Assembly (NCBI RefSeq): GCF_016806835.2
Contig: NZ_CP086111.1
Coordinates: forward strand, 5,821,471-5,885,470
Length of the DNA stretch: 64,000 nt
Source of the DNA: Skermanella rosea
GTDB taxonomy: Bacteria; Pseudomonadota; Alphaproteobacteria; Azospirillales; Azospirillaceae
Direction of reading: 5' to 3'
A program made the position numbers and the translations under genes. This document shows, in pieces, positions 3,562 to 46,434 of this stretch. Each line of letters starts with the position of its first letter. Within the stretch, counting starts at the first letter, position 1. Below the pieces are notes generated by a model that was not told where the DNA came from, did not search any database, and worked only from the letters and a program-made list of their open reading frames with translations.

Positions 3562-4246
3562 AATCGTCCTCGACACCGAAACGACCGGCTTCGATCCCCT
3601 GACCGGCCACCGCATCGTGGAGATCGGCTGCGTGGAGGCGATCAACTTCGTTCCGACCGACCGGTACCTCCACCTCTACATCAATCCGGAGCGCGACATG
3701 CCGCCGGAGGCCTTCGCGGTCCACGGCCTGTCGGAGGAGTTCCTGAGGGACAAGCCGGTCTTCGCCGAGATCTGCGGCCAGTTCCTGGACTTCATCGGCG
3801 ATTCGCGGCTGGTCATCCACAATGCCGAATTCGACATGCGGTTCATCAATGCCGAGCTGAAGCGGCTCGGCATCCCGACGCTGCCGATGAGCCGCGCGCT
3901 CGACACCGTGCAGATGGCGCGCCGCAAGTTCCCCGGCGCCCCTGCCAGCCTGGACGCGCTGTGCCGGCGCTTCAACATCGACAATTCCAACCGCACGCTG
4001 CACGGCGCGCTGCTCGACGCCCAGCTGCTGGGCGAGGTCTATCTGGAGCTCCAGGGCGGCCGCCAGCCCGACCTCGTGCTGGCCGGCAACCGGCGCGGTG
4101 CCGCCGGCGACGCCGAAGGTCCGGTCAAGGTCGAGCGCATCCGCCGCGAACCGCGCCCCCACGCCCCGACCGAGGCCGAGCTGGAGGCCCACGGCGCCCT
4201 GCTCAAGCAGCTGAAGAACCCGATGTGGCTGGCCGGCGCGTCCTGA
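3554..4246 (+). CDS. dnaQ: DNA polymerase III epsilon subunit (3'-5' proofreading exonuclease)
   Basis: Proofreading exonuclease of the replicative polymerase core. The 230-aa protein carries the DEDDh exonuclease motifs: DTETTG at residues 7-12 (Exo I), HNAEFDMRF near residue 92 (Exo II) and HGALLDAQ near residue 150 (Exo III). A typical C-terminal tail binds the alpha subunit. It overlaps the end of coaE by 8 bp and closes the origin-proximal operon. Ten bp downstream lies the truncated metallophosphoesterase. Confidence 0.92.
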
Positions 4247-4256
4247 ACGGGACCTC

Positions 4257-4495
4257 ATGACCGTCTTCTTCACCAGCGACAGCCACTTCAACGACCATCG
4301 CGTCATCTTCATGTATGGCCGGCCCTTCGCCTCCACCGGCCCCATGGACGAGGCCATGGTCGCGCGCTGGAACGAGACGGTCGGCCCGGACGACACGGTC
4401 TGGCACCTGGGCGATTTCGCGGTCCGGCTGAACGAGCGCCGGGTGGACGACCTGCTGTTGCGCCTGAACGGCCGCAAGCACCTGATCACCGGGAA
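4257..4495 (+). pseudogene. Metallophosphoesterase, 5' fragment cut by island insertion
   Basis: Small calcineurin-like phosphoesterase. The N-terminal MTVFFTSDSHFNDHR (metal-binding DxH) and VWHLGDFA (GDxx) motifs are intact. The frame then reaches LNGRKHLITG, where the family normally continues into the third metal-binding motif GNHD or GNND. Instead it becomes KCECFSSLIF and stops at 4526, and base composition turns sharply AT-rich. The break at about 4495 is therefore the left junction of the mobile island. The remaining part of the gene should lie beyond the right end of the island, outside this window. Confidence 0.85.
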
Positions 4496-4628
4496 ATGTG
4501 AGTGTTTTAGCAGTCTCATTTTTTGATTTAGATCATGAAAATTCGAGATAAATATTATGATTTTACCAAATGATAAATTATCGATAGGCTACCTTCCTAA
4601 ACCTCATTAACTCCTTTAGGTTCTTGTT
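4496..4628. other. AT-rich left end of the island
   Basis: This 133-bp stretch between the broken metallophosphoesterase and ginA is strikingly AT-rich compared with the surrounding DNA, with runs such as ATAAATATTATGATTTT. It should contain the left attachment sequence and the promoter of the gin operon; TTGATT at 4523-4528 is a possible -35 element, but no clear matching -10 can be assigned. No gene is seen here. Confidence 0.6.
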
Positions 4629-5984
4629 TTGTTCTCAATCGCGACTCAAAATCGGGTGTGCCAGGAACGTGACTTGGACCCAGCATTGGAAGGGCGGAGG
4701 AACCGAGTGGAGATAGTGTTCACCCGCCGTAACATGCTCGAAAAGGATCTCGATCCAGAGATCCTCGGCCACGATTTTGAAACTATCTGGCAAACACAGC
4801 TACGGCCTATAGCGCTTCGAACGCTGGACGCCAGGGGGATCGACGATCGTGTTCCCTTTATCCTGGATGATCGGCTTAGCTGCGACGAAACGTTGTCTGG
4901 GGTCATGCTTGAGCTATCGTCCTTGATCGCTGGGCGCACGACAATGGAAAGTTATGCACGCCACGCCTTTCGCTTTTTGCGTTACCTCCAGCGCCGAAGC
5001 AAGACGCTATCAGAGTTAGACAATACGACACTCTCAGACTACAAGCGTTACCGACTTAAGACTGATGGGATTGAGGAGCGATCTTGGAATGCCGAGGCTG
5101 CAGCGTTGAAGCGCTTTTTCGACGCATGCGTACTGCGCGAGATACTCCCCCGCAATCCCGTAAATATGCCCCTGTTTGCGTGGGCGATCAGGAGCGCGGC
5201 TGCCGCACCGGAGAGAGCCAAGTTCATCACCCTTGCACAATTCAAGAAGTTTCGTGACGAGGGTCTCGCGCGGGGACGGTACGGGTCGCGTAACATTGCT
5301 TACGCCGACCTGCTCTTGACTACTGGATTACGGCTCGATGAGGGCAATGGATTCCGAGACAGTGATATCCCAAAACCCGCGGCGGCAATGCCACCATCAA
5401 CGGGAAAAGGGTTCAACCATCGTGTTCGCCCCGAAGTGGCCAAAGGAAGCAAAGGCCGAAAGGTAAGGATCTCGCCAAAGTGCGAAAATAGCTTACTTTT
5501 TTATCGTGATCTTTTACGGGTTGACCAAGTGGCTCGCGGTAAACGGGTGGGTCTTTACGATAGGCCTCCTCACGAGTTTTGGCTGAACCAATCGAACTTA
5601 CCGATGAGCGGAAACGGTTGGGAATTCGTATTCCGCAGAGCATCGCATTTGGCTGGAGTTGAAGCCACGCCTCATACTCTGCGCCATACTTTTGCTATTT
5701 ATACTTTATCCAAGCTAATACAACACAACCATGAATCTGTAGCTAGAGCGCAAGAAGAGGCACGAAAGCTCACCAGCGAATGCGCCGGTTACTCAGCCAA
5801 AACCCTTTACGACACTATTCTCGGGGACCCACTACGCCGACTACAAAAACTTCTAGGCCATTCGTCCTATGAGTCAACTTTCATCTATATCGACCTTCTG
5901 GCCGAGGATTTTCCCATCGATGAGATCTTGGAAGTTTTCCATGGGGCAATCGATTCTGAAGTGGAATACGGCTGTGGTGAGTGA
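4629..5984 (+). CDS. ginA: Tyrosine recombinase/integrase, first of trio
   Basis: Site-specific recombinase of about 451 aa (TTG start at 4629; an ATG at 4734 is an alternative). An N-terminal SAM-like DNA-binding region (about residues 90-185) precedes a catalytic domain with the full set: Arg in TTGLRLDEG (about 233), HxxR in PHTLRHTF (about 350-356), His in LLGHSS (about 409) and the nucleophile Tyr in TFIYIDLL (about 419). It is the only clearly complete catalytic protein of the trio. Its last codons overlap the ginB start. Codon use and GC are lower than in the flanking core genes, consistent with transfer. Confidence 0.85.
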   Translation: MFSIATQNRVCQERDLDPALEGRRNRVEIVFTRRNMLEKDLDPEILGHDFETIWQTQLRPIALRTLDARGIDDRVPFILDDRLSCDETLSGVMLELSSLIAGRTTMESYARHAFRFLRYLQRRSKTLSELDNTTLSDYKRYRLKTDGIEERSWNAEAAALKRFFDACVLREILPRNPVNMPLFAWAIRSAAAAPERAKFITLAQFKKFRDEGLARGRYGSRNIAYADLLLTTGLRLDEGNGFRDSDIPKPAAAMPPSTGKGFNHRVRPEVAKGSKGRKVRISPKCENSLLFYRDLLRVDQVARGKRVGLYDRPPHEFWLNQSNLPMSGNGWEFVFRRASHLAGVEATPHTLRHTFAIYTLSKLIQHNHESVARAQEEARKLTSECAGYSAKTLYDTILGDPLRRLQKLLGHSSYESTFIYIDLLAEDFPIDEILEVFHGAIDSEVEYGCGE

Positions 5985-18579: not shown

Positions 18580-18645
18580 CATGTTATAGCATCGGACAAA
18601 TGCCTGAAGTAAGGCCTTGTCGGCTTGAATACAGGAGCGATGAGC

Positions 18646-19779
18646 ATGAGGTCCCTGTTCGGTCAGCCCGTGACGCGACGTTTGCTCCTCGCAGGAGGGG
18701 CCCTTCTGGGAGGGGTGCACGCCGCACGGCTCGCCCTCGGTGGTGCCGCGGCCCAGACGCACGGCCCCGGGCACGCGATGCCGATCACAGACGGCCAGCC
18801 GTCGGCGGCGCTTTCGGCGGCGCACGCCTCGCATGGCGGCATGATGACCGTGGGTGAGGTCGATACCGCGCGGAACGGCTTCGATCCACACACCCTTCTC
18901 ACCGACTGGGATACCGGCGAAGTCATCCGGGATGACCAAGGGCGCCCTTGCCGCGAGTTCGTGGTCGAGGCCATCGACAAGGAAGTCGAGATCGCCCCGG
19001 GCATTTTCTTTCCGGCTTGGACCTACAACGGACGCATCCCCGGCCCGACCATCCGGGCCGTCGAGGGCGAGCGGGTCCGCATCACCTTCCGGAACCGCGG
19101 ATCGCACCCGCACTCCATGCATTTCCACGGCATCCACTCCGCCCGGATGGACGGTGTCCCGGGAGCTGGCGACGTCCTTCCTGGCGGTCAATTCGTCTAC
19201 GAGTTCGACGCCAGGCCTTTCGGCTGCCACCTCTACCACTGCCACACCGTTCCGCTGAAGCGCCACATTCATAAAGGCCTGTACGGTGCCTTCATCGTGG
19301 ATCCTGATCCGGCGCGCCATCCCGAGCACGAAGCGGTCGCCCGCTCCCGCCTGCTCGGCACACCCGAGAACCGGGAGTGGCAGGAGTTTGTCATGGTCAT
19401 GAACGCCTTCGACACGAACTTCGACGAGGAGAACGAGGTTTACGCCGTCAATACGGTGGCGCATGCCTATTCCAAACGCCCGATCGTGATCGACCGGGGG
19501 CGGCCGGTCCGGATTTACCTGGTCAACGTGACCGAGTTCGATCCTATCAACAGCCTTCACCTGCACGGCAACTTTTTCGACTACTACGACAGTGGCACAA
19601 CGCTGACGCCGACGCTCAGGACCGTGGACATCATCACGCAGTGCCAGGGCCAGCGCGGCATCCTGGAGTTCACATACCAGGATCACGAACCGGGGCATTA
19701 CATGTTCCACGCGCACCAGTCCGAGTTCGTCGAACTCGGCTGGATGAGCCTGTTCGATGTTCGGGGGGAGGTCGCATGA
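18646..19779 (+). CDS. Two-domain multicopper oxidase, Tat-exported
   Basis: 377 aa from the ATG at 18646 (RBS CAGGAG at 18632; upstream in-frame starts are less well placed). The N-terminus PVTRRLLLAGG suits a Tat signal. Cupredoxin domain 1 has HSMHFHGIH and HLYHCHTVPLKRHIHKGLYG (type-1 Cys and His); domain 2 has NSLHLHG and HYMFHAHQSEF. The usual axial Met after the second His of the type-1 site is replaced (HKGLYG). It overlaps the ZIP gene by ATGA and lies behind an MntR-like box, which points to oxidation of Mn or Fe linked to uptake. Substrate is inferred. Confidence 0.8.
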   Translation: MRSLFGQPVTRRLLLAGGALLGGVHAARLALGGAAAQTHGPGHAMPITDGQPSAALSAAHASHGGMMTVGEVDTARNGFDPHTLLTDWDTGEVIRDDQGRPCREFVVEAIDKEVEIAPGIFFPAWTYNGRIPGPTIRAVEGERVRITFRNRGSHPHSMHFHGIHSARMDGVPGAGDVLPGGQFVYEFDARPFGCHLYHCHTVPLKRHIHKGLYGAFIVDPDPARHPEHEAVARSRLLGTPENREWQEFVMVMNAFDTNFDEENEVYAVNTVAHAYSKRPIVIDRGRPVRIYLVNVTEFDPINSLHLHGNFFDYYDSGTTLTPTLRTVDIITQCQGQRGILEFTYQDHEPGHYMFHAHQSEFVELGWMSLFDVRGEVA

Positions 19780-25991: not shown

Positions 25992-26474
25992 ATTGAGCGT
26001 CATTCAGCATACAGTTTCGAGTCGGCGCGGGTCGAGTATCCGTGGCACCCGCTGTACGGGCAGACCCTCCGGGTAGTAAACCGGACAGCACGCAGCGGCC
26101 ATCCGGTCATCTGGCTTGAGGAGCGCTCCGGAACAGCCCGGGAATTACCGGCCTGGATGTGCGACGCGGCGTACTGCCTTGATATGGCGGTGTTGGGGCC
26201 GCCACAGGCCGCCATCACGGCCCTTGGTGCATTGGCGGCAGTTCTCTCGGATTTGCGGCACACGGCTGGCGATCACACACCATCGGACAAATCCCTCACC
26301 GAGGAGGCTGCCGATGACCAGACGACCACGACCGCTGACCCAGTTCTCGCTGAACCTCAATGTTCCTCCCCCGGACGTCGTGGTTCCGGACGAGGTCGTG
26401 CAGGTGCTGGCGGACCTTCTCCTGGAAGCCGTGGGCGCCCGGTTGGGCATCGAGGACAGGGAGGACGGCCGTGA
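25992..26474 (+). CDS. DUF5372-like accessory protein of the serine-recombinase element (start unresolved)
   Basis: The frame reads VEYPWHPLYGQTLRVVNRT, then HPVIWLEERSGTARELPAWM, DAAYCLDM and ALGALAAVLSDL. This fits small DUF5372 proteins that I recall upstream of this type of recombinase. The frame is open from about 25992, but no in-frame ATG/GTG is seen before the conserved part, so the start is uncertain (possibly a rare codon). The conserved portion ends near 26260; the frame then overlaps the 59-aa ORF. Role unknown, possibly directionality or target recognition. Confidence 0.45.
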   Translation: MERHSAYSFESARVEYPWHPLYGQTLRVVNRTARSGHPVIWLEERSGTARELPAWMCDAAYCLDMAVLGPPQAAITALGALAAVLSDLRHTAGDHTPSDKSLTEEAADDQTTTTADPVLAEPQCSSPGRRGSGRGRAGAGGPSPGSRGRPVGHRGQGGRP

Positions 26475-26493
26475 GCCCCAAGATCACCGCTGA
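26314..26493 (+). CDS. 59-aa protein of the serine-recombinase element
   Basis: ATG at 26314 with a strong RBS GAGGAGG at 26301-26307. The product starts MTRRPRPLTQFSLNLN and includes an acidic helix (DEVVQVLADLLLEAVG). It overlaps the recombinase start by 23 bp in another frame, implying translational coupling. Small ORFs of this kind commonly precede such recombinases in related bacteria; function unknown. Confidence 0.6.
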   Translation: MTRRPRPLTQFSLNLNVPPPDVVVPDEVVQVLADLLLEAVGARLGIEDREDGREPQDHR

Positions 26494-28561
26494 CCATCCT
26501 GGCCGCGGTGCCGCGGTCTATGTCCGCCAGTCCTCACCCGGACAAGTAGCCAGTCACACGGAAAGCCGCCGTCGGCAGTATGACCTGGCCGATGCCGCAC
26601 GCGCGGTGGGATTTGTCGATGTCATGATCATTGACGAGGATCTTGGCCGCTCCGGGTCCGGCCTCGAAGCCCGACCAGGATTCCAGAAGTTGGTGGCAGT
26701 GGTCTGCGCCGGCACGGTCGGCGCAGTCTACTGCATCGAGGCCTCACGGCTGGCCCGCAACGGTCGGGATTGGCACCACCTCATTGACCTCTGCGCTCTG
26801 GCCGGAACACTGGTCGTTGATCCCGACGGGGTTTACGATCCTTGTCTGATTAACGACCGGCTTCTGCTTGGCCTGAAGGGCACCATGTCCGAGTACGAAC
26901 TCAGCCTGCTGCGCCAGCGCGGCATCGAGGCCCGGGATGGCAAAGCTCGCAGGGGCGAGTTGCAGTTCACCCTGCCGCCCGGCTATTGCTGGAACGAGGC
27001 CGGAAGGATTGAAATTGACCCTGATGAGCGTGTCGCCGGCGCGATCCGCATGCTGTTCAGCAAGTTCCGCGAACTGGGCAGCGCCCGCCAGGTCTTTCTG
27101 TGGGCGCGGGCAACCGACCTGTCGCTTCCTGTCGTGCGGCGCAATCTCACCGCCTGCAAGATCCTCTGGCAGCCGCCGGCCTATCACACGGTCATCCAAG
27201 TCTTGAACAACCCGATCTATGCCGGCGCATACGTGTTCGGCCGGACAGCCAGCAGGACACGGGTCATTGAGGGTCGGGCTCGCAAGACCACTGGGCACAG
27301 ACGGGAACGCACCGAATGGAACGCCCTGCTGCGCGACAACCACGAAGGCTATATCACCTGGGCCGAGTTCGAGGAACATCAGCGCATGCTGGAAGAGAAC
27401 GCCCACATGCAGAAGCGCGCCTCTCGCAAGGCCGGCCGGGGCGGGCGGGCCTTGCTGACGGGACTGGTCCGGTGCGGACGCTGCGGCCGCAGGATGCGGG
27501 TGTTCTACGGTATGCAATCCGGGCATGCCCACCGCTACCAGTGCCGGGGAGACGACGCCCACGTCGGTGTCGGCCTGTGCATCGGGATCGGTGGCGTCCG
27601 TGTCGATCGGGCGATCGTGGCCCAGATGCTGGAGGCCGTGTCTGCCCGTGCGGTGGAGGCCGCCCTGCTCGCCGCCGACCAGGCATCCGCCGCCGGGGCG
27701 GAGGAGCGGGCGGCCCTGGAACGGGAACTGGAAGCGGCCCGCTATGACACATCGTTGGCCGCACGCCGGTACGATTTTGTGGACCCGGGCAAGCGCCATG
27801 TCGTGAGGGAACTGGAAGCTCGGTGGAATACCGCGCTGGAACGGGTGGCGCAGATTGAACGTCGGATTGCCGAAGCCGAGGCAAGATCCGCGGCACGCCC
27901 GAAGGTGGACAAGGCGGCGCTCCTGGGACTGGCTCACAACCTGTCCGCAGCTTGGAATGCACCGACGGCGGACGCGCGGACCCGGCAGCGCTTGACCCGG
28001 CTGCTCGTGGAGGAAGTGGTGATTGACCTCGACGACGCGGCACACGAGGCGGTGCTGCGGATCCACTGGGTTGGGGGCGGTCACACCGAACTGCGCGTCC
28101 CGCGTCGCAGAATAGAGGGCCGGCAGGAAAAGGGAAATCCCGGAGCCGTCGAGGTCGTGCGTCAGCTCTCCGGTCACTGGCCAGACCATGAGATCTCCGT
28201 CACGCTGAACCGCATGAAGTGCCGGAGCGAAAACGGTGAGACCTGGACGACCGTGAAGGTTCGGCTGTTACGAGAACGGCTTGGCATTCCCGACTTCGAT
28301 CCGTCAGTACCCCGTCCCGAGATGCTGACGGCCGAGAAAGCGGCGAAGCGGCTCGGCATCTCCATCCCGTCCGTGCATCGCCTCATCCAACGCGGGGCCC
28401 TGCCGGCAACCCAGCTTGTCCCTTCGGCTCCCTGGCACATTCCAGCCGCCGCCTTGGACACCGATGCCCTACAAACGGGCGTGAACGAGATTAAGGCGCG
28501 GCGCCCGAAAAACCTTATTGATTATCATAGAGATGAAACGATGCGCCTGCCAGGATTGTGA
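26471..28561 (+). CDS. Large serine recombinase
   Basis: 696 aa from the GTG at 26471 (frame open upstream). Resolvase domain with the catalytic Ser in AVYVRQSSPGQ (about residue 18), ASRLARNGRDW and the SEYELSLLRQRG helix; recombinase domain with PPGYCW near 165; zinc ribbon CGRCGRRMRVF with CRGDDAHVGVGLC (about 330-375); long coiled coil (about 415-485); C-terminal HTH (LTAEKAAKRLGISIPSVHRL, about 618-637). It catalyses integration and perhaps excision of the element splitting ycnI. Confidence 0.9.
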   Translation: MSPKITADHPGRGAAVYVRQSSPGQVASHTESRRRQYDLADAARAVGFVDVMIIDEDLGRSGSGLEARPGFQKLVAVVCAGTVGAVYCIEASRLARNGRDWHHLIDLCALAGTLVVDPDGVYDPCLINDRLLLGLKGTMSEYELSLLRQRGIEARDGKARRGELQFTLPPGYCWNEAGRIEIDPDERVAGAIRMLFSKFRELGSARQVFLWARATDLSLPVVRRNLTACKILWQPPAYHTVIQVLNNPIYAGAYVFGRTASRTRVIEGRARKTTGHRRERTEWNALLRDNHEGYITWAEFEEHQRMLEENAHMQKRASRKAGRGGRALLTGLVRCGRCGRRMRVFYGMQSGHAHRYQCRGDDAHVGVGLCIGIGGVRVDRAIVAQMLEAVSARAVEAALLAADQASAAGAEERAALERELEAARYDTSLAARRYDFVDPGKRHVVRELEARWNTALERVAQIERRIAEAEARSAARPKVDKAALLGLAHNLSAAWNAPTADARTRQRLTRLLVEEVVIDLDDAAHEAVLRIHWVGGGHTELRVPRRRIEGRQEKGNPGAVEVVRQLSGHWPDHEISVTLNRMKCRSENGETWTTVKVRLLRERLGIPDFDPSVPRPEMLTAEKAAKRLGISIPSVHRLIQRGALPATQLVPSAPWHIPAAALDTDALQTGVNEIKARRPKNLIDYHRDETMRLPGL

Positions 28562-30634: not shown

Positions 30635-31819
30635 ATGCGTAGGCGCCAATTCTTGAAGTATGGCAGTGTCTTTGCTGTGTTCACCACGGCCACCGCTTCC
30701 CTGACGTCCTTGGCTGCTGCGCAGACATCCGATCCTGGCGACTTGCCAACCGGCGATGACGCCGATTTCGACCTGGAAATCGTTGACGTTGATGTTGAGC
30801 TGATCGACGGCAGCACCGTGCCGATGTACGCGTTCGCCCATGCAGGAAAGCCGCCGTCGATACCGGGCCCGATCCTCCGGGTTAAGCAGGGAGACACGGT
30901 CCGTATCGACATCCGGAACTCCAGTTCCCGCCCTCACGGCTTCCAGATCCTGGGCCAGAACATGTCCGCCATCGTCGGCCTAGCCCCGAGTGAGGGCGAC
31001 GGCGAAGACAAGGCTCGGGTCGAGTTCACGGCAACGAAGCCGGGAACCTATTTCTACGTGGACGGCGACAACGCTCCGGTCAACCGCGTGCTCGGCCTGC
31101 ACGGCGCGCTGATCGTGGAACCGGCGAACGGCTATGCCGACGGCAAAGTCAGGAAGAAACCGATGCCCTATCCGCCGGGAACCGCAACGACGAACATGAA
31201 GTCGCTGTTCACGGCGCTCGGCGAGGCAACCATCGACGGCAAACCGGCCCGCTTCCCTGGCAAACCTTGGCAGGCCGGACGCGAGTATGTCTGGATCTTC
31301 AACCAGATTGACCCGGTCATGTGCCGCCGGATTGCCGCCGGGGAAGTACTCTCGGCATCGGAGTTCCAGGAGCAATTCCATCCCCGCTACTTCACGATCA
31401 ACGGCCTGTGCGGCATGGACGCGGCGCATGACAAGGCCACGTGCCCGACCGGGCATGTCGGCGAGCCGGCGCTGCTGCGCACGATGAACGCCGGCCTGGC
31501 GACGCACTGTCCGCACATTCACGGCAACCATGTTTTCGTGCTGACCCAGAGCAACGCCAATGGCGTTCCCGTCTATCAGCAGGACATCTACGAACACGAC
31601 GTCTGGCTCATGCCGCCCATGATGATCAAGGATGTCCTGCTTCCCTTCACCACCCCGCCGGACCTGCCGCCCGCGCCCTGGAAAATGGTGCAGGAGAAAT
31701 ACCCTCTCCAGTACCCCATGCACTGCCACAACGAAATCTCCCAGACTTCCGCCGGCGGCTCCTATCCGATGGGCTTGATGACGGACTGGGAAATCGAGGG
31801 GCCACTGGTAACCAGCTGA
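30635..31819 (+). CDS. Multicopper oxidase-like cupredoxin protein with C-terminal ligand set
   Basis: 394 aa from the ATG at 30635 (MRRRQFLKYGSVFAVF, a Tat-type start). The first cupredoxin domain has no HxHG motif (it reads SSRPHGFQILGQ). The second carries ATHCPHIHGNHVFV, like the HPxHxHG motif of domain 3, and YPMHCHNEISQTSAGGSYPMG, an HCH...M type-1 site with a spacer different from normal. Upstream frames are open but have no oxidase character. It is followed by a second oxidase gene that holds the complementary N-terminal motifs. Confidence 0.75.
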   Translation: MRRRQFLKYGSVFAVFTTATASLTSLAAAQTSDPGDLPTGDDADFDLEIVDVDVELIDGSTVPMYAFAHAGKPPSIPGPILRVKQGDTVRIDIRNSSSRPHGFQILGQNMSAIVGLAPSEGDGEDKARVEFTATKPGTYFYVDGDNAPVNRVLGLHGALIVEPANGYADGKVRKKPMPYPPGTATTNMKSLFTALGEATIDGKPARFPGKPWQAGREYVWIFNQIDPVMCRRIAAGEVLSASEFQEQFHPRYFTINGLCGMDAAHDKATCPTGHVGEPALLRTMNAGLATHCPHIHGNHVFVLTQSNANGVPVYQQDIYEHDVWLMPPMMIKDVLLPFTTPPDLPPAPWKMVQEKYPLQYPMHCHNEISQTSAGGSYPMGLMTDWEIEGPLVTS

Positions 31820-31966
31820 GCATCCGGGCGGAGACATCGGCAACGTTCCGGTGGTCACGGTTGCACCGCCGTCCGGCAGATATGTGCCCATAAAACACTG
31901 TGATGGATGTCAGGACAGGCTCAGGGATCGAGATCTGTCCGGTCAGCTTGGCCTTGGAGGTTATCA

Positions 31967-33028
31967 ATGACAATCATTTACCGCCCTATTTTCGATCCCC
32001 TCGAGTTCGATACTTTCGGCTGCCACCCGTTCGAAGACGATCCCGCGACGCCTGACCGGACCAACCGGCAGGTCTTCGTGCGCCGCCAGGTCGCCGACTG
32101 GAACGTCGATATGAAGGACGGCTCGCAGCTGCAGTTCTGGGGCTTCAAGGATCCGGATATCTCCGGCAGCGACTCGCCGTGGCCGTCCAAGATCATCCGG
32201 GTCAAGCAGGGCCAGATCTTCCATTGCGAGTTCAAGCCGACCAAGGGCGCCCACACCATCCACTGGCACGGCATCGAACCCACGCCCATGAACGACGGCG
32301 TCGGCCACACCTCGTTCGAGGTCAAGAGCAGCTACGTCTACCAGTGGTGCGCCCACCAGGCCGGCACGTACCTCTACCACTGCCACAAGAACACTGTGTT
32401 GCACTTCGAGATGGGCATGTACGGCGTGCTCATCGTCGATCCGCTCACCAAACCCTCGGACACGAGGAACCCGAACTACCTCTACGATCCCCTGCCGGGT
32501 GACTTGACCCCCGGCATCACCCCCGGAGCACCCTACGGGGCGGAGTCGATCCTGGTGTTCGACGACGTCGATCCGGTGTGGCACAAGCTCGACCACAACG
32601 CCGGTATGTGCGGCGACGACGTCGGACTCGACAAGTTCAATCCGACGTACTTCCTGATCAACGGCGTCCACAACGGACTGTCGCAGATCGACAGGCGGAC
32701 TGTCACCACGACCCAGGCCGGCAAGAACGTGCTGGTCCGTCTCGCCAACGCCTCCTACAGCCGGCTCTACGTGACGCTCCCCGTCGATGCCTGGATCGTC
32801 GAGGTCGATGGTCGTCCGCTTCGGGTAAACCGGGCCAAAGGTGCCTTCGCGGGACCCAGGAAGCTCGCCGCGAACACCCGGCTCGAGATCGCTGTGGCAC
32901 AGCGCTATGCCCTCTGGATCCCGAACATCCCGAGGGGTGATCACAGGATTACCGGCCATTTCCATCACTGGATCACCAACAAGCGGCATTTCGACGGGAC
33001 GGCCGTCGCCAAGATCATCGCCACCTGA
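31967..33028 (+). CDS. Multicopper oxidase-like cupredoxin protein with N-terminal ligand set
   Basis: 353 aa from the ATG at 31967 (RBS TTGGAGG at 31954-31960). No signal peptide is visible. Domain 1 has HTIHWHGIEPTPMNDGVGH and TYLYHCHKNTVLHFEMGMYG, with type-1 Cys, His and Met. The second half ends GHFHHWITNKRHFDG and lacks the HCHxxxH motif. The preceding gene holds the opposite set, so the two may act together. The SCO-like gene starts 18 bp downstream. If not exported by a partner it would stay cytosolic, which would be odd for this family. Confidence 0.75.
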   Translation: MTIIYRPIFDPLEFDTFGCHPFEDDPATPDRTNRQVFVRRQVADWNVDMKDGSQLQFWGFKDPDISGSDSPWPSKIIRVKQGQIFHCEFKPTKGAHTIHWHGIEPTPMNDGVGHTSFEVKSSYVYQWCAHQAGTYLYHCHKNTVLHFEMGMYGVLIVDPLTKPSDTRNPNYLYDPLPGDLTPGITPGAPYGAESILVFDDVDPVWHKLDHNAGMCGDDVGLDKFNPTYFLINGVHNGLSQIDRRTVTTTQAGKNVLVRLANASYSRLYVTLPVDAWIVEVDGRPLRVNRAKGAFAGPRKLAANTRLEIAVAQRYALWIPNIPRGDHRITGHFHHWITNKRHFDGTAVAKIIAT

Positions 33029-33046
33029 GAAGAGGGTCTTTTGACC

Positions 33047-34057
33047 ATGCGGACCAAATTTTTTCTGAAAAGCTCCGGGCGGGCGGCGGTCCTGGCGACC
33101 CTCCTGATGGGCGGCACGGCATTGTACTTCGGCACTCTGGCAATGTCCGCTAGCGCAACCCAGGACCAGGGCGCTCACGGCGCAGCCGTCCAGGCCGCTG
33201 AGCCGCAAGCCGGCGGCGGACACGGCTCGGGACATGGGTCTTCCGAACAGGCAAACCCCGAGGAAGCCCAGTCGGGCAGCCAGGGCTCCGGGCACGGCAG
33301 CGGCTACGGCGCTCATAGCGGCTGGCCGGAGCCGCGGCAGCTCGGCGGTGACTTCAGCCTGACCGACCATACGGGCCGCAAAGTCACTCTGGCCGATTTC
33401 AAGGGCAAGGCTGCCGCCTTCTACTTCGGCTATGCGCAGTGCGGCGACATTTGCCCGATCATCGGCACCAAGCTCGGCATGGCGGTCGATCTGATGGGCG
33501 ACAAAGCGGATCAGATCAACATCGCCATGGTCAGTGTCGATGACCGCAACGATGGTCCGAAGGAACTCGCCGCCTTCGTTGCCAAGCAGCACCCGCGCTT
33601 AATCGGCCTGTCCGGAACCCGCGGGGAGATCTACGACATCGCGGCCAAGTTCCGGGTTCGCCGGGACTATGTGACACAGAACCAGGTTGCCAAGGAAGGC
33701 GAGGAGCAGGCCGAAGCTCACAGCGGCGGCGCCCACGCAAGTGGAGCGGAGAGTCCCCAGACCTCCCATGAGGCGGCTTCCGGGCAGACTCATGAGGGCG
33801 CAGCAGCCGTGCAGACCGCGGGCAGCACGACTGAAGCCCAAGCCAAGACCACTACCCCAAGAGAGACGACTCCGGGCCAGCGGATCAGGATCCGATCCGC
33901 CTCGGACGACGCAACGCGGCTGCACAACATGGCGATGGCGCATACCACGCACATCTACCTGCTGAACAAGAATGGCCAGGTGGTTCGATACATCTATCCC
34001 AGCATGACGCCGGAAAACCTCGCCAAGCGCCTCACCGATCTGGTTGACGAAGGCTGA
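33047..34057 (+). CDS. SCO1/SenC-like copper chaperone with low-complexity insertions
   Basis: 336 aa from the ATG at 33047 (RBS GAGGG; a TTG at 33041 is possible). One N-terminal anchor (residues 13-35), a Gly/His/Ser-rich linker (about 45-95), then a thioredoxin fold with the copper-binding AQCGDICPIIG (CxxxC). The distal His, expected in D-H-x-x, is in AHTTHIYLLNKNGQ near residue 303, after an unusual Ala/Ser/Thr/Glu-rich insert of about 75 residues (about 220-295). SCO proteins insert Cu into cytochrome oxidase; here it follows two oxidase-like genes. Confidence 0.8.
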   Translation: MRTKFFLKSSGRAAVLATLLMGGTALYFGTLAMSASATQDQGAHGAAVQAAEPQAGGGHGSGHGSSEQANPEEAQSGSQGSGHGSGYGAHSGWPEPRQLGGDFSLTDHTGRKVTLADFKGKAAAFYFGYAQCGDICPIIGTKLGMAVDLMGDKADQINIAMVSVDDRNDGPKELAAFVAKQHPRLIGLSGTRGEIYDIAAKFRVRRDYVTQNQVAKEGEEQAEAHSGGAHASGAESPQTSHEAASGQTHEGAAAVQTAGSTTEAQAKTTTPRETTPGQRIRIRSASDDATRLHNMAMAHTTHIYLLNKNGQVVRYIYPSMTPENLAKRLTDLVDEG

Positions 34058-44699: not shown

Positions 44700-45047
44700 C
44701 TAACTGGTTGTTTCCCGCTCGCCATAATTACCGCAGACGCGCACGCCGCACGCCGTGTCTGCCAGCAGCTCATCGGCCAAACGCAACAGCTGTTCGATCC
44801 GCTCATCGCCGAGTCGGTAATGCACGAACCGACCGCGCGTTTCGGCGCTTACCAGGCCGCACTCGCTCAGGCAACGCAGGTGGTTCGAGACGTTGGGCTG
44901 CGAAGGGCCTGTTACTGTCACGATGGCGCTGACATGCAGCGGCCCCTGACGCAGCACCTGGAGGATCGCCAGACGCGATGGATCGGCCAGCCCACGGAAC
45001 AGCTTGGCCTGGAGTTGAGAGGTGCGGATTACAGTTTCTGACGCCAT
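44700..45047 (-). CDS. ArsR/SmtB-family repressor, CmtR-like
   Basis: 115-aa winged-helix repressor (GPLHVSAIVTVTGPSQPNVSNHLR recognition region). The Cys pair in HLRCLSECGLV lies in the recognition helix, the alpha-4C arrangement of CmtR, and DTACGVRVC near the C-terminus may supply a further thiolate. CmtR senses Cd or Pb. It is divergent from a (now truncated) HMA-CDF exporter gene with a palindromic site in between. Confidence 0.85.
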   Translation of the reverse strand: MASETVIRTSQLQAKLFRGLADPSRLAILQVLRQGPLHVSAIVTVTGPSQPNVSNHLRCLSECGLVSAETRGRFVHYRLGDERIEQLLRLADELLADTACGVRVCGNYGERETTS

Positions 45048-45098
45048 GCACCTTGTTTAACAGCTCGACATATGGGTCGCCACTGATATGCTTCATCG

Positions 45099-45116
45099 TA
45101 TCACCAGCTGCTGATA
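45099..45116. promoter_or_regulatory. Putative ArsR/CmtR operator
   Basis: Imperfect 18-bp palindrome TATCACCAGCTGCTGATA in the 80-bp gap between the divergent ArsR-like repressor gene and the HMA-CDF gene, 12 bp before the latter's start codon. Assigned from symmetry and position. Confidence 0.55.
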
Positions 45117-45127
45117 TAACGGGTGTC

Positions 45128-45487
45128 ATGACTGCCACCACCAGCTCCCCACCTGAAACCGTCCGTTACCGCGTCACCGGGATGGATTGCCCATCCTGCG
45201 CCGCCAAAATCGAGAAGGAGACTCGGAGGGTCGGCGGGGTGGAGGATGTGAAGGTGTCCATCGCCTCGCAGATCATGACGCTGCGCCTGGTGAATGGCGA
45301 GCGGTTGCCGGAAATCGAACGCGCGGTCGCCGGCCTCAGCTACCAACTCGACCGGCTGGACGTCGCCCGCCCCCAGGCGGCAAGGGATGACGATGACGAC
45401 GAGCTGCCCAAGGACCTCAGCCACATCACACCCGGCCACAAGCAGGCGCTGTGGATCGTTGTGCTGCTCAATGTCGGCTACGGTGCG
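45128..45487 (+). pseudogene. HMA-domain CDF exporter, truncated by IS66 remnant
   Basis: ATG at 45128. HMA domain with VTGMDCPSCAAKIEKE (about 17-30), an Asp-rich linker, then the first membrane segment of a CDF-like exporter (KQALWIVVLLNVGYG). At about 45485 the frame passes without a stop into IS66 transposase sequence (VTLAFCWSHSRRQF). The remaining five helices and metal sites are missing and no downstream half was found past the IS66 remnant. The adjacent CmtR-like regulator has thus lost its probable target. Confidence 0.8.
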
Positions 45488-46191
45488 GGCGCCGTCACCC
45501 TCGCGTTCTGCTGGTCACACAGCCGTCGGCAGTTCTTCGAAATTCACCAGTCAAGCCAGTCGCCGATCGCCGGCGAGGTGCTCCGGCGGATAGCTGAGTT
45601 GTACCGCATCGAAGATGAGATCCGGGGGCAGCCGCCTGATGTCCGGCGGACGGTTCGTCAGGACAGAAGCAGGCCGAAGGTCGAGGCGCTCAAGGTCTAC
45701 CTGGAGGAGCAATTGGCACGCGTCTCCGGGACGTTGGGGTGGAGGGCCCCCAACGCCGGTGGCCAAGGCGATCCGCTACATGCTGAGGCACTGGGCCGGC
45801 CTGTGCGTCTTCCTGAACGACGGCCGGGTCGAGCTGGACACCAACAGCATCGAGCGCCTGCATCGGATCGTGGCAACGACGCGGAAGAACGCTCTGTTCG
45901 CCGGGGCGGACTCCGGCGCCCGATCCTGGGCGATCTTCACCTCGCTGATCCAGAGCGCCAGGATGAACGGCCTCAATCCGTTCGAATACCTGAAGGATGT
46001 GCTCGAGCGCATCGTGTCCAGCGACGTCAAGGCCCATCAACTCGACTGTCTGCTACCGTGGACCTGGAAGACTCAGCAGGCCGGTCGCCAGACAGTTCAG
46101 GCAGCCTGATACAACTCCCGTTCAGGAAACCATCCCACCAGTGTCGCGCGCGACCATCCTCTCGGCAACGTGGTCAGCAGATGACGCTTAC
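45485..46191 (+). mobile_element. IS66-family remnant (3' part of transposase and right end)
   Basis: C-terminal part of the IS66 TnpC transposase: LAFCWSHSRRQFFEI, then after a frameshift near 45738 AKAIRYMLRHWAGL, FLNDGRVELDTNSIER, RKNALFAGADSGAR, and the conserved end LLPWTWK, stopping at 46109. The right terminus CAGCAGATGACGCTTAC ends at 46191 and fits IS66 ends (GTAAGCG reversed). The left half with tnpA/tnpB is absent, so this is a deletion derivative fused to the exporter gene. About 240 bp to 46434 hold no recognisable gene. Confidence 0.85.
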
Positions 46192-46434
46192 AGAAGATCC
46201 GCCTAATGTGGGGCCGGGCCTTGACCTGCTGGCGCCACCTGGGTTTGGAGGCTGCACAACACTCAGGGAGCATGACTTGGAAAAAGGGGCTTGGTGCTTG
46301 TGCACCGGGAGTGCGGATGGCCTGAACTTAACTGATTATTGAAGCCGACAAGGAAATCGCTACCTTGAAGTGCATCGGTGGTTGTTAGGAATTGTTGTGA
46401 AGGCAAAACCATGCTTTATGATCTCTGCTTCATT

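Follow-up and report, generated by a model that had tools for sequence, protein, structure and literature searches.

Two adjacent paralogous genes of Skermanella rosea carry opposite halves of a trinuclear copper site: a putative heteromeric four-domain multicopper oxidase

Can the trinuclear copper site of a multicopper oxidase be divided between the products of two neighbouring genes? The question is raised by two genes, here called P1 and P2, which lie on the same strand, 147 bases apart, in the 64,000-nucleotide stretch of Skermanella rosea DNA analysed as a whole (the window). A preliminary description of this DNA had suggested that a complete trinuclear site may form only between the two proteins. 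Ligand conservation, natural fusions and two joint structure models support this idea, as far as sequences and models can carry it.

Reciprocal ligand loss in two paralogues

P1 (30635-31819, + strand; ATG at 30635, stop at 31819) encodes a protein of 394 aa with two cupredoxin domains. Its first domain is devoid of copper-ligand motifs, neither HxHG nor HCH being found there in the protein sequence, and the second holds, according to sequence and alignment, four trinuclear-site histidines. The first pair, H294/H296, belongs to HCPHIHG (residues 291-297; 31505-31525, + strand), in which H291 occupies a type-1 ligand position; the second, H363/H365, belongs to HCHNEISQ (residues 363-370; 31721-31744, + strand), where the cysteine is retained and the third type-1 histidine is gone. 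The motifs had been described as HCPHIHG and HCH...M in the last domain, with a first domain free of HxHG. This distribution stands, except that HCH...M falls short of a complete type-1 motif: its third histidine is always replaced, by E-x-S-Q, and the methionine is G, Q or D in relatives.

P2 (31967-33028, + strand), whose ATG at 31967 is preceded by GGAG, encodes 353 aa, also in two cupredoxin domains. Here it is domain 1 that carries the ligands: HTIHWHG (residues 96-102; 32252-32272, + strand) provides the type-1 histidine H96 and the pair H99/H101, and HCHKNTVLHFEM (residues 138-149; 32378-32413, + strand) provides the pair H138/H140 together with the type-1 Cys, His (C+7) and Met (C+10). 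Domain 2 is without ligands and no C-terminal HCH was found in the protein sequence, so that the open reading frame agrees with what had been claimed for its motifs. In both proteins the roles of the histidines are those that we assume from motif position.

A profile-profile alignment of the two family alignments identifies P1 and P2 as full-length, collinear two-domain paralogues (288 columns, E 7e-23), a separate alignment giving the same result for the first domain. In domain 1, HTIHWHG and YHCH of P2 face PHGFQIL and YVDG of P1; in domain 2, HCPHIHG of P1 faces ligand-free P2 residues. The alignment stops short of the P1 HCH, whose P2 counterpart is simply absent. Opposite halves of the trinuclear site have thus been lost, four histidines being left in P1 domain 2 and four in P2 domain 1. 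Neither the family nor the profile alignments contain conserved His pairs in P1 domain 1 or P2 domain 2. As regards the multicopper oxidase superfamily, the four His-pair motifs are brought together by P1 and P2 jointly and by neither alone, and the complete type-1 site (H96, C139, H146 and M149) is found in P2 only. Pfam recognises partial multicopper-oxidase domains in both proteins, and no NCBIfam model scores above its cut-off for either. With a family profile, P2 domain 1 aligns strongly to domain 1 of 2zwn and 3g5w, and P1 domain 2 weakly to their domain 2 (i-Evalue 0.015 and 0.034, respectively).

Conservation was followed in two sets of relatives. The first came from a P1-profile scan with one genome per species, combined with two sequence patterns; 124 stretches matched, at least 80 of them encode a relative, and 78 loci were retained. 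Four plasmid loci and the other copy found in the genome of the window bring the total to 83. Among these listed loci, the P1 motifs occur in 83/83 and the strict P2 patterns in 77/83 each, five of the misses being loci without P2; L020 (HTIHNHAV) and L023 (FFYHCHKNT) have the histidines in an altered context. In the family alignments, residues H291, H294, H296, H299, M362, H363, C364 and H365 of P1 are present in 79/79 rows and H101 in 75/79. As for P2, H96, H99, H101, H138, C139, H140, H146 and M149 are present in 75/75 rows, followed by H206 (74), H114 (72), H210 (70), M151 (67), H86 (60) and H334 (43). Part of this invariance is built in, and the P1 HCH count is biased, because YPMHCH[NAS]E was one of the two scan patterns and rows were cut by motif. 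Fragments or frameshifted copies (L022, L085, L086, L089 and L090) were left out of the residue counts, as were, for P2, L051 (motif broken by the frame) and L011, L053 and L057 (P2 absent). The omission of L086 hid an axial Met-to-Leu change in the alignment, which is visible in the second set.

That second, profile-found set was read without any motif requirement. Its source is a search of 197 genomes of the family to which the genome holding locus L052 (Arthrobacter globiformis NBRC 12137) belongs, and it comprises every P2 place found there (40) as well as the lone P1 places. It shares several genomes with the scan set, so the two are not independent. All 44 P1-bearing loci keep H291, H294, H296, H363, C364, H365 and E367 (S369 in 43/44), and both P2 His motifs are kept in all 40 P2-bearing loci. 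The axial M149 is replaced by Leu in 2/40 P2 loci, one being a lone P2 (L106, G346:C147) and the other a split copy (L141).

Two further conserved features lie outside the shared site. P1 retains the type-1 His and Cys and the Glu next to HCH (residues 291, 364 and 367) in 44/44 loci, even though the third type-1 histidine is lost. The proposal of a heteromer leaves the retention of H291 and C364 unexplained; these leftover residues of domain 2 may form a further, non-canonical copper site. In P2, a WHxLxHxAG motif following domain 1 (32582-32596) is near-invariant (H206 in 74/75 rows, H210 in 70/75); it does not belong to the known ligands and may bind a metal.

Linkage, fusion and joint models

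It had been proposed to check whether the order and spacing of the pair are conserved, and they are. Among the loci listed, 78/83 have P2 immediately after P1 in the same orientation, or joined to it in one open reading frame (the exceptions are L011, L053, L057, L085 and L090). In the 197-genome search (E 1e-30 for both proteins), P1 and P2 occur in the identical 24 genomes, and P1 is upstream at 39 of at least 40 P2 places, place counts being lower bounds since the best 8 to 10 candidates per genome were scored. The remaining place is L106, whose locus shows no P1 motif. The window's genus is represented by five genomes, four of which have the genes, with P1 beside P2 at 12/12 P2 places; the P1 places number 14 and include one lone gene followed by different DNA and one apparent half gene at a contig end. 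Across the 289 genomes of the class, P2 was detected at E 1e-30 in one, namely its own genome. Named homologues belong to Azospirillaceae and other Pseudomonadota, Desulfuromonadales/Geobacteraceae, Actinomycetota and one genome placed in Myxococcota by NCBI ranks.

It had also been stated that homologues standing alone, with the same ligands and full activity, would speak against the idea. On the genomic side such homologues are mostly missing: one lone P2 is known from 40 places. P1 genes that stand alone and keep these ligands are also known (six match rows corresponding to five places, one of them in two pieces), in 4/24 genomes, all of which have pairs elsewhere. Plasmid pTC1, searched as a single record, has P1 and no P2.

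A single open reading frame encodes both parts in 31 of the 75 loci in which both could be aligned, mostly in Arthrobacter and also in L023. On a quick tree with long branches, the fused or split state changes at least five times, or four times when L010 is not counted. The latter (3577-5924, on a plasmid of Arthrobacter FW305-BF8) is a fused gene that a frameshift has interrupted; its annotation shows two overlapping genes. The matched region spans 785-840 aa in 30 natural fusions and consists of four domains. Pairwise identities of P1 and of P2 are correlated (0.97 over the 75 loci), with the same nearest neighbour for both parts in just 29/75.

The window pair was modelled with AlphaFold as a single chain, with stops read through and 35 aligned relatives (pTM 0.82, mean pLDDT 77), and AlphaFold gave pTM 0.89 and pLDDT 86 for the natural fusion L052; read-through or fused chains set P1 beside P2, which favours contact in such models. 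The P1 side of the window model matches 3g5w (Z 28.1, rmsd 2.0 Å, 264 residues), and for the P2 side of the L052 model the matches are chains of nitrite reductases and oxidases, with Z about 21 (3wia, Z 21.8); that other families are missing from the VIA lists behind these two sets of matches carries no evidential weight. Taken together, the natural fusions and the two joint models support P1 and P2 as one predicted physical unit.

A proposed four-domain oxidase and its alternatives

We consider, with a probability of roughly 0.8, that P1 and P2 form a heteromeric four-domain multicopper oxidase with an oxygen-reducing cluster between P1 domain 2 and P2 domain 1. Very probably the two proteins work as an enzyme together and not singly. 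Duplication of a two-domain oxidase would have given rise to P1 and P2, each of which would then have given up the cluster ligands that the other kept. The trinuclear site would consist of eight histidines, H294, H296, H363 and H365 from P1 with H99, H101, H138 and H140 from P2, at the interface of the two different proteins. The type-1 copper of P2 domain 1 would accept electrons from the substrate and hand them on, by way of the HCH bridge, to the cluster for the reduction of oxygen to water. The unit would thereby amount to one interface of the two-domain-oxidase type, built from different chains.

The closest known relatives in ligand arrangement are 2zwn and 3g5w, which we take to be type-C two-domain multicopper oxidases. 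P1-P2 resembles them by a type-1 site in domain 1, with His at C+7 and Met at C+10 exactly as in 3g5w. Types A, B and C are distinguished in PMC13151041 and PMC3192119, and the former describes two-domain oxidases as trimers with the cluster common to two chains. Type-C homotrimers hold both halves in each chain, whereas in P1-P2 they are divided between paralogous genes and either protein has one ligand-free domain; His pairs in both domains, together with a type-1 site in the first, occur in neither chain. P1-P2 would therefore work like a type-C oxidase yet is not one, because each chain is without half of the ligands. With three-domain laccases, CueO and CopA it shares the cupredoxin fold and the ligand motifs, but the NCBIfam models of CopA and CueO require 479 and 525 bits and P1 and P2 reach 23-51, which places them outside both families. 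They also fall outside NirK (TIGR02376), with 41.9 bits for P1 and 37.5 for P2 vs. a cut-off of 296.3.

It is improbable, though the best of the alternatives, that P2, and perhaps P1, acts alone in electron transfer or copper binding, the His pairs being relics. P2 domain 1 does have a complete type-1 set, and lone P1 genes and one lone P2 are on record; yet relics would hardly be kept as the eight trinuclear-site histidines are (44/44 and 40/40 profile-found loci for P1 and P2, respectively), and the repeated fusion of the two genes also speaks against this reading.

Fold comparisons of whole models lead to a second, still less probable alternative, in which P1 and P2 are two thirds of an MnxG-like six-domain ring whose third two-domain partner is missing or encoded elsewhere. 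The best Foldseek match of the window model is indeed MnxG (9bxa_A, E 6.6e-29), and six-domain proteins head the lists of both models, with TMq 0.53 (window) and 0.48 (L052) for MnxG and 0.49-0.52 (window) and 0.45-0.46 (L052) for ceruloplasmin entries; three-domain oxidases are listed at 0.23-0.29. TMq reaches 0.53 at most, and the rmsd, 8 Å or more, is too large for this overlap to establish ring geometry. P1-P2 is similar to four of the six MnxG-type domains, shares with MnxG and ceruloplasmin the tandem two-domain units and would also share a cluster between domains 2 and 3, as reported for bacterial six-domain oxidases in PMC3600357. The same paper, however, locates their type-1 site in domain 2, as opposed to the third domain of P1-P2. 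MnxG and ceruloplasmin moreover have six domains in one chain, as opposed to four in one or two chains here, and the natural fusions modelled (L052) or aligned have four. Lastly, no cupredoxin was recognised among the 22 commonest clusters of neighbouring genes, some of which were run through Pfam. A third cupredoxin subunit was looked for and not seen among the neighbours identified.

Separate P1 and P2 homotrimers, in the manner of two-domain laccases or nitrite reductases, are the least probable arrangement: each protein has the two-domain fold, as the matches to 3g5w and 3wia given above illustrate, but just four of the eight histidines would meet at each interface.

To return to the heteromeric enzyme, we lean towards treating it as a separate architectural class, i.e. 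a multicopper oxidase of four cupredoxin domains, made as a single chain or else by obligate association of two paralogues, each deprived of the trinuclear half that the other keeps. A search of open-licence literature returned no description of a four-domain or four-cupredoxin trinuclear multicopper oxidase and, by titles and the beginnings of abstracts, nothing related on heterodimeric or split oxidases or on a Skermanella multicopper oxidase.

Copper context, export and significance

A gene for a SCO1/SenC-like protein (33041-34057, + strand) starts 12 bases after P2. From its family it is likely a copper-insertion helper and would probably aid copper loading of the pair. A SCO1 homologue follows P2 in 8 of the 11 further pair loci of the Skermanella type; L022 and L103 are without it, the sequence of L018 ends early, and none was seen in the two Indioceanicola loci. 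Other neighbours in the window encode DUF1775 and DUF2946 proteins, cytochrome c', a cation efflux protein, DsbD, a DsbA-like thioredoxin, a second SCO1, heavy-metal ATPases and CopC-CopD, and the pair is thus placed among copper-handling genes. Its likely role would be oxidation of a reduced metal, with Cu(I) first in line, a substrate that is a guess from this copper island. A family-wide Mn(II) oxidase role was considered and not adopted, as neither an Nramp transporter nor a metal-dependent regulator was seen among the 22 commonest, partly identified, neighbour clusters. Two of the copies on Actinobacterial plasmids do have an Nramp gene beside them, and one of these two also has a metal-dependent regulator.

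The window also contains another multicopper oxidase-like gene with HSMHFHG, HCH and HLHG in a single chain (18625-19779, + strand), a long open reading frame resembling, from its sequence, a large serine recombinase and adjoining the copper island (26360-28561, + strand), and a single frame with matches to an IS66 transposase as well as to a heavy-metal-associated domain (44978-46342, + strand). Elsewhere, a second Skermanella arrangement of P1, P2 and SCO1 occurs in L104 (8012-16015; C1:2796000-2814000 of the window's own genome), L102, L105 and L016, with genes for PilN-like, T2SS GspM-like and MauG-like di-haem proteins downstream and, in L104, a T2SS ATPase upstream; a link of this second copy to secretion outside the cell is possible.

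Concerning export, the contrast drawn earlier between a Tat-like start in P1 and no signal-like start in P2 was borne out. The N-terminus of P1 reads MRRRQFLKYGS, the signal sequence covers 30635-30721 (+ strand, end approximate), and other P1 proteins also begin with twin arginines. By our own motif-and-hydropathy test, Tat-like starts occur in 15/50 P1 frames, 0/45 separate P2 frames and 2/32 fused frames; the test is strict, missing the visible MRRREFLKYGG of L002. In the window, P1 would be the sole bearer of an export signal, and its folded P2 partner would probably travel with it through Tat, the two being co-exported by one signal. Such Tat hitch-hiking is generally known.

In Actinobacteria, a small protein, mostly with a twin-arginine start and an HG-rich stretch, is often encoded just upstream of P1 (e.g. 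L067, 4123-4719; L058, 3789-4418; L011, 3704-4369). Its cluster touches 32/82 loci, a few members being chance open reading frames. Two of three members tested had no Pfam match at E 0.01, and one had a DUF4352 match below the cut-off. It is a candidate third subunit or exporter, and the export signal of most Arthrobacter fusions may reside on it.

Present annotation overlooks the proposed enzyme: in L012, for instance, the label for P1 is 'hypothetical protein' and that for P2 'multicopper oxidase domain-containing protein', and either gene expressed alone would likely give an inactive protein. In two-domain laccases the cluster lies between identical chains, and in ceruloplasmin-like enzymes between domains of a single chain. 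If the reading is correct, the four-domain class would link two-domain homotrimers to six-domain rings as an intermediate form, and P1-P2 would provide a clear case in which reciprocal degeneration locks two genes into one enzyme. Half-site paralogues, split or fused according to lineage, would thus offer a testable intermediate for the evolution of ring-shaped copper oxidases.
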